NCBI RefSeq assembly: GCF_022669155.1
Contig: NZ_JALBVB010000056.1
Coordinates: 378,958-422,571 of the forward strand
Origin: Kineococcus sp. TRM81007
GTDB taxonomy: Bacteria > Actinomycetota > Actinomycetes > Actinomycetales > Kineococcaceae
DNA: 43,614 nt
Direction: 5' to 3'
The translations under genes were made by a program, and so were the position numbers. Positions 26,146 to 30,529 of the stretch are shown here, piece by piece. The notes beneath the pieces are model-generated. The model saw nothing but the letters and a program-made list of their open reading frames with translations, was not told the DNA's origin and searched no databases. The number at the start of each line of letters is the position of its first letter. The first letter of the stretch is position 1.

Positions 26146-27828
26146 GTGCCGGAATTCATCTACGTCATGTCGAAGGCGCGCAAGGCGCACGGGGACAAGG
26201 TCATCTTGGACGACGTCTCCCTCTCCTTCTACCCGGGGGCCAAGATCGGGGTGGTCGGCCCCAACGGCGCCGGCAAGTCGAGCGTCCTGAAGATCATGGC
26301 GGGCCTGGACCAGCCCTCCAACGGCGAGGCGCGACTGGCGCCCGGCTTCAGCGTCGGCATGCTCATGCAGGAGCCGCCGCTGGACGAGTCGAAGACGGTC
26401 CTGGAGAACGTGCAGGACGGCCTGGGCGACCTCAAGAAGAAGATGGACCGCTACAACGAGATCACGGCGTCCTTCGAGGACCCGAACGCCGACTACGACG
26501 CCCTGATGGAGGAGATGGGTCGGCTGCAGGAGGACCTGGACCACGCCAACGCGTGGGACATGGACTCCCAGCTGGAGCAGGCGATGGACGCGCTGCGCTG
26601 CCCGCCCGGCGACGAGCAGGTCACCCACCTCTCCGGTGGGGAGAAGCGCCGCGTGGCGCTGTGCAAGCTGCTGCTGGAGGCGCCCGACCTGCTGCTGCTG
26701 GACGAGCCCACCAACCACCTGGACGCCGAGTCGGTGACGTGGCTGGAGCAGCACCTGGCGAAGTACCCCGGTGCCGTGCTGGCCGTCACCCACGACCGCT
26801 ACTTCCTCGACAACGTCGCCCAGTGGATCCTCGAGCTGGACCGCGGCCGCGCCTACCCGTACGAGGGCAACTACTCCACCTACCTGGAGAAGAAGGCCGC
26901 CCGCCTGGACGTGCAGGGCAAGAAGGACGCCAAGCTGCAGAAGCGGCTGAAGGACGAGCTGGAGTGGGTCCGTTCCAACGCCAAGGGCCGCCAGACGAAG
27001 TCGAAGGCGCGCCTGGCCCGCTACGAGGAGATGGCCGCCGAGGCCGAGCGCACCCGCAAGCTCGACTTCGAGGAGATCCAGATCCCCGCCGGGCCCCGCC
27101 TGGGCAGCGTGGTCATCGAGGCCAAGGACCTCAAGAAGGGCTTCGGGGAGCGCACCCTCATCGACGGGCTGTCCTTCTCGCTGCCGCGCAACGGCATCGT
27201 CGGCGTCATCGGCCCCAACGGTGTCGGCAAGACCACGCTGTTCAAGACGATCGTCGGCCTGGAGCCCCTGGACGGCGGTGACCTGAAGATCGGCGACACC
27301 GTCAAGCTGTCCTACGTGGACCAGTCCCGCGGCGGCCTGGACCCGAAGAAGACGCTGTGGGAGGTCGTCTCCGACGGCCTGGACTTCATCCAGGTCGGCA
27401 ACCAGGAGATGCCCTCGCGCGCCTACGTCTCCGCGTTCGGCTTCAAGGGACCGGACCAGCAGAAGCCCGCCGGTGTCCTCTCCGGTGGTGAGCGCAACCG
27501 CCTGAACCTGGCGCTGACGCTCAAGGAGGGCGGCAACGTCCTGCTCCTGGACGAGCCGACCAACGACCTCGACGTCGAGACCCTCGGCTCGCTGGAGAAC
27601 GCCCTGCTGGAGTTCCCCGGCTGCGCCGTGGTCGTCAGCCACGACCGCTGGTTCCTCGACCGCGTCGCCACCCACATCCTCGCCTACGAGGGCACCGAGG
27701 AGGACCCGGCGAACTGGTACTGGTTCGAGGGCAACTTCGCCGGCTACGAGGCCAACAAGGTCGAGCGCCTCGGCCCGGACGCGGCCCGCCCGCACCGGGT
27801 GACGTACCGCAAGCTCACGCGCGACTGA
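26146..27828 (+). CDS. ettA: Energy-dependent translational throttle protein EttA (ABC-F)
   Basis: A ribosome-associated ABC-F ATPase, 560 residues, two NBDs in tandem with no membrane domain. NBD1 has Walker A GPNGAGKSS, signature LSGGEKRRVAL and LLLLDEPTNHLDAESV. NBD2 has GPNGVGKTT, LSGGERNRLNL and LLLDEPTNDLDVETL. The N terminus PEFIYVMSKARKAHGDKVIL and the arm/PtIM linker with KTKSKARLARYEEM-like sequence identify EttA rather than Uup or an antibiotic-resistance ABC-F. It binds the E site and gates the first elongation step according to ATP/ADP. GTG 26146 is probably leaderless. Its 3' end overlaps the convergent diguanylate cyclase gene by 14 bases. Confidence 0.96.
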   Translation: MPEFIYVMSKARKAHGDKVILDDVSLSFYPGAKIGVVGPNGAGKSSVLKIMAGLDQPSNGEARLAPGFSVGMLMQEPPLDESKTVLENVQDGLGDLKKKMDRYNEITASFEDPNADYDALMEEMGRLQEDLDHANAWDMDSQLEQAMDALRCPPGDEQVTHLSGGEKRRVALCKLLLEAPDLLLLDEPTNHLDAESVTWLEQHLAKYPGAVLAVTHDRYFLDNVAQWILELDRGRAYPYEGNYSTYLEKKAARLDVQGKKDAKLQKRLKDELEWVRSNAKGRQTKSKARLARYEEMAAEAERTRKLDFEEIQIPAGPRLGSVVIEAKDLKKGFGERTLIDGLSFSLPRNGIVGVIGPNGVGKTTLFKTIVGLEPLDGGDLKIGDTVKLSYVDQSRGGLDPKKTLWEVVSDGLDFIQVGNQEMPSRAYVSAFGFKGPDQQKPAGVLSGGERNRLNLALTLKEGGNVLLLDEPTNDLDVETLGSLENALLEFPGCAVVVSHDRWFLDRVATHILAYEGTEEDPANWYWFEGNFAGYEANKVERLGPDAARPHRVTYRKLTRD

Positions 27829-29365
27829 CGGAGGTGCTCGTCGCGTCGTCGCCGGCCACCGGCGCCGTCGCGGCGGGCACCACCCTGTCGCGCCCGCCCT
27901 CCTTCGCGGCGTAGAGGGCGGCGTCGGCCCGCCCGAACAGCTCCACCGGGCTCTCCAGCCCGCTCCACTGCGCCACCCCGGCCGAGAAGGTCTGCCCCGC
28001 CGGTGTGCTGGTGCGCAGGGCGTCGACGAGGTCGACGGCCTCCTGGAGGTCGTGGCCCAGCAGCAGCAGGACGAACTCCTCGCCGCCCCAGCGGCCCAGC
28101 ATCGCCCCGCGGCCCGGGCCCACGCCGGCGTGCGCGGCGTCCAGCCGACCGCGCCACGCGCCCGCCGCCGCGACGAGCAGGCTGTCGCCGGCCTGGTGGC
28201 CGAAGGTGTCGTTGAAGGCCTTGAAGCGGTCCAGGTCGAGGACCGCCACGCACAGCGGTGACCCCTCGCCCCGGGCGCGGGTCTGCATCCGCTCCAGCTC
28301 CGCGTCGCTCGTGCGGCGGTTCGGCAGCCCCGTCAGGGCGTCGGTGCGGGCCATGTCCGCCAGCCGCGACGCCTGCTGCTCCAGGTGGCGCAGCAGCCCG
28401 GACATGCGCGCGACGACGAGCAGGAAGAGCACCACCGACGTCAGCGCGACGGCCCACGCCTCCAGCCGGACGCCCAGGGCGAGCTGGACCAGCAGCGTGC
28501 AGGGCGACAGCAGGCTGGCCAGCGTGAGCGCGGCGAGCCGGCCGCGGGTGAAGCGGGTGTCGGCCTCGGGGGCGGCGTCCGCGTCGGTGAGCCGGCGCAT
28601 CGAGGGGTGCACCGCCGCAGCGGCGAAGCTCACGTACGCGAGCAGGAACGGCAGGTCGCTGAGCCTGTCGTCCAGGGAGTGCATCGTCGTGTACTGGTAG
28701 GTGCAGTCCGCCGCCAGCAGCAGCGCGTTCGCCGCCACCAGCCAGCGGAAGGCCACCGCCCGCGCGCCGGCCGTCGTCAGCAGCCGCACCAGCAGCGCGA
28801 GCAGCAGCACGTCGCCCAGCGGGTAGGCCGCCGCCAGCGCCCGGGCCAGCGTCGAGGAGTCCGCCGACTCCAGCCCCGGTCGCATCAGCAGGACCCAGCT
28901 CATGAGCAGGAACCCGACGGTGAAGATCAGCGAGTCGATCACGCCCTCGCGGTCGCCCTCGCCGCGGCGCGCGTGCACGAACCGCGCGAACCCGGCGGCG
29001 AGGAGGACGTAGCTGGCCAGGTACAGCGCGTCGGCGGGGGAGGGGAAGGGGTCCGTGTCCAGGACCCACGTGTAGACCACCCACAGCAGGTCGGCCAGCG
29101 CCCACAGGCCGACGCCGGCCGTCGTCAGCCACCACCCGCTCGCCGCCAGCGGCCGGTGCCGCCGGACCCCGACGACCATGGTGGCCACGCACCCGAACGC
29201 GATCGCCGAGTACAGCGCGTCGCTCCACGCGCTCTCCGGGAGCGCGACGCAGGCCACCGACAGCACGCCACCGACGACCAGGTGCAGCCGGAACAGCGTG
29301 TCGCCGCGGAAGATGCCCACGCGTACCCATCGGCCGGGTCCCTGCCGCGGCTGAACCCGTCCCAC
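27815..29365 (-). CDS. Membrane-anchored diguanylate cyclase (GGDEF)
   Basis: 516 residues. The N-terminal two thirds hold eight or so hydrophobic helices (about residues 30-330) with no MHYT, PAS or HAMP motif I can recognise, and a short helical stalk (HLEQQASRLADMARTDALTGLPNRR, in parts) leads to a GGDEF domain. The active site reads GRWGGEEF (intact GGEEF), and DLDRFKAFNDTFGHQAGD is the metal/nucleotide-binding stretch. No RxxD inhibitory site is found five residues upstream, so product inhibition is probably absent. It makes cyclic di-GMP from GTP at the membrane. GTG 29365 is the longest reasonable start; GTG 29320 is an alternative. Confidence 0.88.
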   Translation of the reverse strand: MGRVQPRQGPGRWVRVGIFRGDTLFRLHLVVGGVLSVACVALPESAWSDALYSAIAFGCVATMVVGVRRHRPLAASGWWLTTAGVGLWALADLLWVVYTWVLDTDPFPSPADALYLASYVLLAAGFARFVHARRGEGDREGVIDSLIFTVGFLLMSWVLLMRPGLESADSSTLARALAAAYPLGDVLLLALLVRLLTTAGARAVAFRWLVAANALLLAADCTYQYTTMHSLDDRLSDLPFLLAYVSFAAAAVHPSMRRLTDADAAPEADTRFTRGRLAALTLASLLSPCTLLVQLALGVRLEAWAVALTSVVLFLLVVARMSGLLRHLEQQASRLADMARTDALTGLPNRRTSDAELERMQTRARGEGSPLCVAVLDLDRFKAFNDTFGHQAGDSLLVAAAGAWRGRLDAAHAGVGPGRGAMLGRWGGEEFVLLLLGHDLQEAVDLVDALRTSTPAGQTFSAGVAQWSGLESPVELFGRADAALYAAKEGGRDRVVPAATAPVAGDDATSTSVSRA

Positions 29366-29378
29366 CCGTTCGGCCGGT

Positions 29379-29411
29379 CACCGCGACCGGCGGGTGCCCC
29401 CGGTCGCGGTG
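29379..29411. terminator. Terminator after the His-rich mini-gene
   Basis: Perfect 12-bp arms (29379-29390 and 29400-29411) around a nine-base loop. It begins five bases beyond the stop codon of the small ORF on the minus strand and lies just upstream of the diguanylate cyclase start. Confidence 0.6.
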
Positions 29412-29415
29412 CCGT

Positions 29416-29589
29416 TCAGCGGCTCCGGCGCTGCGTGCGCCGGGCGTGGCGGCTGACGACGCGGTCGGCCCAGGCGGCGGCGGCCGCGACCCGGCGGGAG
29501 CCCGCGCAGTGCCGCGGCACGCACGGTGGTCCGAGCGCGTGGTGCGGGTGGTGCCGGTGGTGCTGCAGGACGTGCATCGCGGTGACCAT
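29416..29589 (-). CDS. His-rich 57-residue small protein with own control region
   Basis: ATG 29589 has GAGGAGGG (29597-29604) seven bases upstream. The peptide begins MVTAMHVLQHHRHHPHHA, holds seven His residues in about 13 positions and two cysteines in CVPRHC, then turns Arg-rich. His/Cys clustering suggests metal binding, but no family is known to me. It is flanked upstream by a perfect CRP/GlxR-like palindrome and a -10-like box, and downstream by a 12-bp terminator hairpin; together these support a real, individually regulated gene. No membrane segment. Confidence 0.6.
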   Translation of the reverse strand: MVTAMHVLQHHRHHPHHALGPPCVPRHCAGSRRVAAAAAWADRVVSRHARRTQRRSR

Positions 29590-29620
29590 GACCCAGCCCT
29601 CCTCAAGAGCTCCGTCGCCC

Positions 29621-29636
29621 TGTGATGCACGTCACA
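29621..29636. promoter_or_regulatory. CRP/GlxR-type binding site (TGTGA-N6-TCACA)
   Basis: A perfect two-arm match to the CRP-family consensus, with five-base arms and a six-base spacer, 32 bases upstream of the His-rich ORF. Minus-strand -10-like boxes (TAGTGT, 29634-29639) overlap the site, so binding would more likely repress than activate. The centre bases differ from the TA often seen in GlxR sites. Confidence 0.7.
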
Positions 29637-29677
29637 CTATCTCGCGGTCGTCGCGCCGGCGCCACCCGGAGCGGGGT

Positions 29678-30529
29678 TCACGGCAGCCGCAGCATCCCCT
29701 CCTGCGCCACCGAGGCCACCAGCCGCCGCTGCCGGTCGTACACGCGCGCCGTCGACAGCCCCCGCGCGCCGCCCGCGTTCGGGCTCTCGGCCACGTACAG
29801 GAACCACTCGTCGGCGCGCGCCGGCCGGTGCCACCACATCGCGTGGTCCAGGCTCGCCACGCTCAGCCCCGGGGTGGCCCACACCAGCCCGTGCCGTCGC
29901 AGCACCGGCTCCAGCACGGTGAAGTCCGAGGCGTACGCCAGCGCCGCCCGGTGCACCCCCTCGTCGTCCGGCAGCACCCCCTCCAGCCGCATCCACACCG
30001 CCTGCCGCGCGGTGCGCTCCTCGCCCGGGCGCAGGTAGATCGCCGGTTCCACGTGCCGCACGTCGGTCAGGCGCCCGCGGCCGAGCTGCCGGGCCGCCGG
30101 GTGGTCCACGGCGTCCAGCAGCTCCAGGTCGCTCGTCAGCTCCTCGGGCTCGGGCACCCGCGGCGCCGGCTCGGCGTGGTCCAGCCCCTCGGCCGGCGCC
30201 TGGAAGGACGCGATGCCCGACAGGATCGCCACGCCGTTCTGCAGGGCCTGCACCCGCCGCGCCGAGAACGACCTGCCGTCGCGCAGCCGCTCCACCGCGA
30301 AGTGCACCGGCACGTCCGGGTCGCCCGGGCGCAGGAAGTAGGCGTGCAGCGAGTGCACCGGCCGGTCCCCGGGCACGGTCCGGGAGGCCGCCACCGTCGC
30401 CTGCCCCAGCACCTGCCCGCCGAACAGCCGGGGCCGCCAGCCCGGCAGGTTCGGTGCGGTGAACACGTCGGCGGCGTCGGGGACCGGCCGGACGTCCAGG
30501 ACGGGCAGCAGGGGGCTGGGCTCGCTCAC
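29678..30529 (-). CDS. tesB: Acyl-CoA thioesterase II (TesB family)
   Basis: Hydrolyses acyl-CoA to fatty acid and CoA. 283 residues with a double hotdog fold. The first hotdog shows RLFGGQVLGQA and SLHAYFLRPGDP; the second has SLDHAMWWHRPARADEWFLY and the conserved GGARGLSTARVYD. The catalytic Asp/Gln/Thr triad region (SLDHAMWWH) is intact. GTG 30529 is six bases after TAGCCT (30536-30541), giving a probable leaderless mRNA. It is divergent from the MDR oxidoreductase. Confidence 0.93.
   Translation of the reverse strand: MSEPSPLLPVLDVRPVPDAADVFTAPNLPGWRPRLFGGQVLGQATVAASRTVPGDRPVHSLHAYFLRPGDPDVPVHFAVERLRDGRSFSARRVQALQNGVAILSGIASFQAPAEGLDHAEPAPRVPEPEELTSDLELLDAVDHPAARQLGRGRLTDVRHVEPAIYLRPGEERTARQAVWMRLEGVLPDDEGVHRAALAYASDFTVLEPVLRRHGLVWATPGLSVASLDHAMWWHRPARADEWFLYVAESPNAGGARGLSTARVYDRQRRLVASVAQEGMLRLP

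Follow-up and report, generated by a model that had tools for sequence, protein, structure and literature searches.

Organization of the locus

The window that we analysed, a 43,614-nucleotide stretch of Kineococcus sp. TRM81007, lies on contig C55 of a genome of 4.2 Mb in 60 contigs (G000). That the genus is Kineococcus is indicated by G008, another member, in which 8,001 bases of a 182,572-base contig show 100% identity to NC_009806.1 of Kineococcus radiotolerans. Within a 312-base intergenic stretch it carries a frame of 57 codons plus stop (29416..29589, minus strand; hereafter the mini-gene), the product of which would be a small, basic and His-rich protein. Upstream lies a gene for an acyl-CoA thioesterase of the tesB type (29678..30529, minus strand), which falls below the NCBIfam tesB equivalog cut-off (245 vs 293 bits), and downstream a gene for a GGDEF-domain protein (27815..29365, minus strand). 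The GC content of the mini-gene stretch is 77%. A Shine-Dalgarno sequence, GAGGAGGG, stands 7 bases 5' of the ATG (29597..29604, minus strand), a palindrome of the GlxR/CRP type precedes it at 29621..29636, and a strong hairpin follows the stop codon (29379..29411, minus strand). Both the 57-codon frame and the strong Shine-Dalgarno sequence claimed in the initial annotation of this DNA were thus borne out. The frame alone is unsurprising, since a closed ATG-initiated frame of 57 or more codons arose in 15.6% of 3,000 shuffles of the intergenic stretch. The frame together with its Shine-Dalgarno sequence, and the exact palindrome, are surprising, as a frame of at least 50 codons with GGAGG 4–10 bases ahead occurred in 0.185% of 20,000 shuffles and about 0.008 exact palindromes are expected per window under a first-order model.

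Distribution in related genomes

The tesB gene is present in all 11 genus genomes, that of G004 being the nearest (89%) and those of the other nine ranging from 70 to 80%. An ortholog of the mini-gene lies behind tesB in G004 (E 2.7e-12, 67% over residues 1–52; 61% identical over the whole protein alignment). Overall, the mini-gene was found in 2/11 genus and 2/12 family genomes, namely G000 and G004, when as many as 150 candidates were scored in each genome, and in 2 of 396 order genomes (E<=1e-4), where the number scored was only 16 per genome. At E<=0.1 the family search gave a match in 4 of 12 genomes, the two additional ones, at 0.05 and 0.08, being dropped as weak. The protein search returned a match at E<=1 in 55 of 59 genomes, of which only G000 and G004 fell below 1e-3 (next 0.00103); a match in G001 lay within a region covered by longer open reading frames and was dropped. 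Searching with the intergenic DNA (E<=1e-3) gave matches in 41/59 genomes, at length only in G000 and G004 (239 bases, 76%), while the others were short GC-rich pieces and were dropped as well. None of the other nine genus genomes showed the palindrome pattern, with C and G variants allowed, between 100 bases before and 700 bases after the tesB stop. Two contig pattern scans (597 and 591 matches), from which records near the window's genome were possibly excluded, yielded no relative at E<=1e-3, and a literature search found no paper on the mini-gene. Plasmid or phage relatives were rejected, as tblastn returned nothing up to E 0.1 (P0001 only).

By reading, a GGDEF-type frame closely follows tesB in G008, and the end of an ABC-F-type gene follows it in G006. 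In G004 (contig C696, L002) the GGDEF gene is missing from the locus and the mini-gene faces an ABC-F-type gene, the two being separated by a perfect inverted repeat of 20 bp. When G000 was aligned with G008, gaps allowed, the edges of the insertion could not be placed cleanly. The simplest account is a gain of the mini-gene in the branch leading to G000 and G004; alternatively, it may have been lost elsewhere in the genus.

A putative GlxR/CRP operator

The palindrome, TGTGATGCACGTCACA at 29621-29636, is an exact TGTGA-N6-TCACA, as had been claimed, and is the sole site in the window at up to one mismatch. At that tolerance 0.39 sites would be expected in the window, and at least one occurred in 31/100 shuffles. 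In G004 the half-sites are identical at 10/10 positions and the spacer at 4/6, so that both copies of the mini-gene (2/2) keep the exact consensus. Across the genus the exact motif was found 17 times, in 7/11 genomes, compared with 3 for the reversed control pattern; in G000 alone there are 4, only about five times the 0.79 expected from a first-order model of the window. A candidate regulator is also encoded. Indeed, all 11 genus genomes contain an HTH_Crp_2 match over the cut-off (best E 2.9e-17 to 2.4e-16; the proteins of G000 and G004 alone were translated), and the G000 protein, with both cNMP_binding and HTH_Crp_2 domains, aligns over residues 16–239 with the Crp/Fnr regulator of 3i54 (E 1e-84), the GASRETVNKALADFA helix being common to both. 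Conservation in G004, enrichment in the genus and the presence of the regulator support the original reading as a CRP/GlxR-like site, and the palindrome is most likely an operator for the GlxR/CRP ortholog. The GlxR consensus is 5'-TGTGA-N6-TCACA-3', and GlxR activates ldhA (PMC7999487); in Corynebacterium glutamicum 209 GlxR sites have been described (PMC3917453). Kineococcus goes unmentioned in the accessible parts of these two papers.

Six of the 17 exact motif sites stand, by reading, before asp23-type genes (L072, L078, L079, L080, L081 and L083); the two of these genes that were tested are both Asp23 (PF03780), and one divergent neighbour encodes a sigma factor whose regions 2 and 4 are of the ECF type. 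All six sites share a register 33 bases past the site (CTCTATC in three, CTCCAAC in two and CTCGAAC in one), which suggests that the motif is used in Kineococcus. These asp23-type genes, some of which stand divergently to ECF-sigma-type genes, probably form a cAMP-GlxR-controlled envelope-stress module. At two further loci, L077 (G000) and L075 (G005), the palindrome precedes apparently the same gene in two species, which suggests a conserved target. The layout of site, GGAGG and ATG recurs in 23/396 order genomes. Of the 24 places listed, 22 lie outside G000 and G004; no short product there exceeds 4 His, a count reached by one 47-aa frame.

Direction of regulation and transcript end

The centre of the palindrome lies 39.5 bases from the ATG in G000 and 40.5 in G004, with the Shine-Dalgarno sequence in between. 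Classical activators bind at -41.5 or -61.5, and these positions would place the transcription start at or inside the mini-gene frame. The site is therefore too close for classical activation, and repression appears likelier, by geometry alone, as the initial annotation had predicted. That annotation had also placed the site over -10-like boxes. Weak -10-like bases (GATAGTGT, 29634..29641, minus strand) do overlap the palindrome, as does the box TAGTGT (29639-29634); they are only partly conserved, with GATAGT in G000 and GATGAT in G004, and the box is not kept as TANNNT, since the aligned place in G004 reads TGATGT.

A somewhat unlikely alternative is that the gene is real and the palindrome is not its repressor site: transcription would begin at an unmapped start or read through from tesB, or the site would activate the gene or serve another CRP-family protein. 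This would agree with the scan of 29000-30000, which recognised no promoter (0 sigma-70-like sites), with the motif lying 98–112 bases from the start codon in L078, L079 and L080, a distance that suits activation, and with a second strong HTH_Crp_2 match in G004 (C87, E 1.1e-15). However, the spacing at the mini-gene leaves no room for the classical activator positions. Read-through is further argued against by a 12-bp perfect inverted repeat after tesB in G004, because of which the mini-gene would be a separate unit there.

The hairpin after the mini-gene has 15-nt arms (29397-29411 and 29379-29393) that are 93% complementary, its stem beginning at the fifth base past the stop. For the 39-nt piece the folding energy is -32.7 kcal/mol (z -5.6), a value matched by 0/200 shuffles. 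Of the terminator hairpin claimed earlier, the strong GC-rich stem is thus present and the T-tract is not: no T-run follows and the scan of 29000-30000 returned 0 terminator-like sites, so that the hairpin is only a possible terminator. In G004 the mini-gene stop is followed, 24 bases on, by a perfect inverted repeat of 20 bp (z -4.0, computed on a longer piece); this hairpin has another sequence than that of the window and a different distance from the stop (24 vs 4 bases). A ten-base perfect inverted repeat (29569-29578 and 29624-29633) also joins the operator to codons 4–7, and its pairing would enclose the Shine-Dalgarno sequence. This repeat is perhaps due to chance, as it is absent from the inverted repeats listed for G004; the hairpins of the Shine-Dalgarno region do not exceed shuffles in stability in either copy (z -0.5 and -0.9).

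Nature of the encoded protein

The two predicted proteins, of 6.5 and 6.6 kDa, have a pI of 12, with 11–12 Arg and Lys residues against a single acidic one, and contain 9 and 7 His and 2 and 1 Cys, respectively. No match was found in Pfam (E<=0.01) or NCBIfam (E<=1), and a PDB profile search gave 15 hits, mostly to eS21, with a best E of 0.032, which we took as chance. AlphaFold2 on the two rows predicted helices at residues 4–13 and 25–56 (mean pLDDT 69.6, pTM 0.40), with block pLDDT of 82–91 for residues 31–57 and a poorly defined start. We tentatively picture a small, cationic helix with affinity for nucleic acid or the ribosome and with a metal-capable, His-rich start, a prediction that is doubtful and forms the weakest step of our explanation.

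The first reading of the locus, a cAMP-controlled small metal-binding protein, strikes us as somewhat improbable. H11, H13, H16, H17, H27 and C28 are indeed conserved in G004, among them 4/7 N-terminal His and 1/2 Cys; C23, H6, H10, H14 and H48 are not, so that of the reported His cluster followed by two Cys, which is present in the window, one Cys alone persists in the ortholog. Neither the family searches nor the eS21 hits favour metal binding, the conserved part is dominated by the Arg-rich helix, and, given how basic the protein is, metal binding is only one possibility. Metallothionein-type proteins carry several conserved Cys in CxC/CxxC motifs, and such an identity was rejected, as the window protein has two Cys with four residues between them, one of which is conserved.

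Coding evidence

That the frame encodes a protein is indicated by the ortholog in G004, which keeps the frame, the ATG and the GGAGG of the Shine-Dalgarno sequence. Over codons 1–49 the two copies differ by 33 bases and a single whole-codon gap, and 33/48 residues are identical, compared with 25.85 when the same substitution types are placed at random (P=0.00055). The same holds for the core codons 20–49 (23/30 identical, null 18.18, P=0.00245) and for all 56 aligned codons (34 identical, null 26.97, P=0.00185). The dN/dS of codons 1–49 is 0.54, the lowest of six frames tested (others 0.68–1.48), with 0.35 for the core and 0.62 for the whole frame, compared with 0.35 for tesB; the dS of the mini-gene (0.42–0.47) is twice that of tesB (0.20). 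GC3 is 0.96 and 1.00 in the two copies, resembling the neighbouring genes. The initial annotation had proposed a dominance of third-position substitutions as a check, and this was seen in codons 20–49 (10/18) and not in codons 1–20 (4, 7 and 5 by position, 5/16 third) or in the whole frame (18/45). We saw no genome in which the flanking genes are kept and the frame is broken, the case named at the outset as speaking against a gene; the other nine genus genomes lack any detected copy. Given that amino acids are conserved beyond what the base changes predict, in a comparison of two sequences only, we take the mini-gene to be probably a real, protein-coding gene.

It is quite unlikely that no protein is made and that the locus specifies a non-coding or regulatory RNA, or a chance frame in conserved DNA. 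Frames of this length are common by chance, a hairpin stands at the end of the mini-gene and the first 20 codons have a weak coding signal; against this, amino-acid identity exceeds the null, the Shine-Dalgarno sequence and ATG are conserved, and the gap is a whole codon. A known RNA family was rejected, as a search of 28800-30200 against Rfam was empty up to E 1. The probability of a His-codon leader peptide of an attenuator, suggested by a run of CAC codons followed by a hairpin, is negligible, as the next gene in the window is the GGDEF gene and that in G004 is an ABC-F-type frame convergent with the mini-gene, and no histidine gene lies downstream in either.

Interpretation and comparison with known systems

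Overall, our best explanation, which we consider reasonably probable, is that the locus forms a small transcription unit complete in itself, which encodes a cationic His-rich protein and is repressed through the palindrome as a GlxR/CRP operator. At the level of sequence, the frame and the operator are conserved in one ortholog, amino acids are conserved above chance and the regulator gene is present. For transcription, binding, the sign of regulation and function, we infer the following. The unit would span 29379-29641 and yield a 6.5-kDa, strongly basic, His-rich product restricted, as far as searched, to one Kineococcus branch. The mini-gene would probably be read from a promoter of its own that overlaps the palindrome or stands immediately before it, and the transcript would end at or near the hairpin. 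By occupying the promoter or the start site, the cAMP-bound regulator would prevent transcription, and the protein would thus be made at low cAMP. A bolder version, which we consider unlikely, is a recently gained cassette behind tesB, comprising promoter, GlxR operator, small protein and hairpin end; it would encode a new family of helical proteins, cationic and His-tailed, that are turned on by a fall in cAMP.

The mini-gene is a young, ordinary small gene, and its arrangement is not exceptional; wider mechanisms do not hinge on it. If expressed, it would add a small protein that matches nothing in Pfam or NCBIfam and offer a clean example of a very young gene brought under a global cAMP regulator. 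The locus further points towards a regulon of the GlxR type in Kineococcus, to which Asp23-type genes, some beside ECF-sigma-type genes, would belong.

With the regulon of GlxR and other actinobacterial CRP proteins the mini-gene shares the exact consensus, a CRP-type regulator gene in the genome and a site conserved with the gene in 2/2 copies, whereas its predicted site lies far nearer the ATG than do the sites of the asp23-type genes in Kineococcus. Hpn-like proteins are His-rich small metal-binding proteins; the mini-protein resembles them in being short and in its His cluster and Cys, and differs in the lack of a family match, the partial conservation of its His and its strongly basic helix. 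Like lineage-restricted (orphan) small genes, the mini-gene is short, occurs in only two close species as searched and evolves faster than tesB; unlike them, it carries a conserved putative operator of a global-type regulator.
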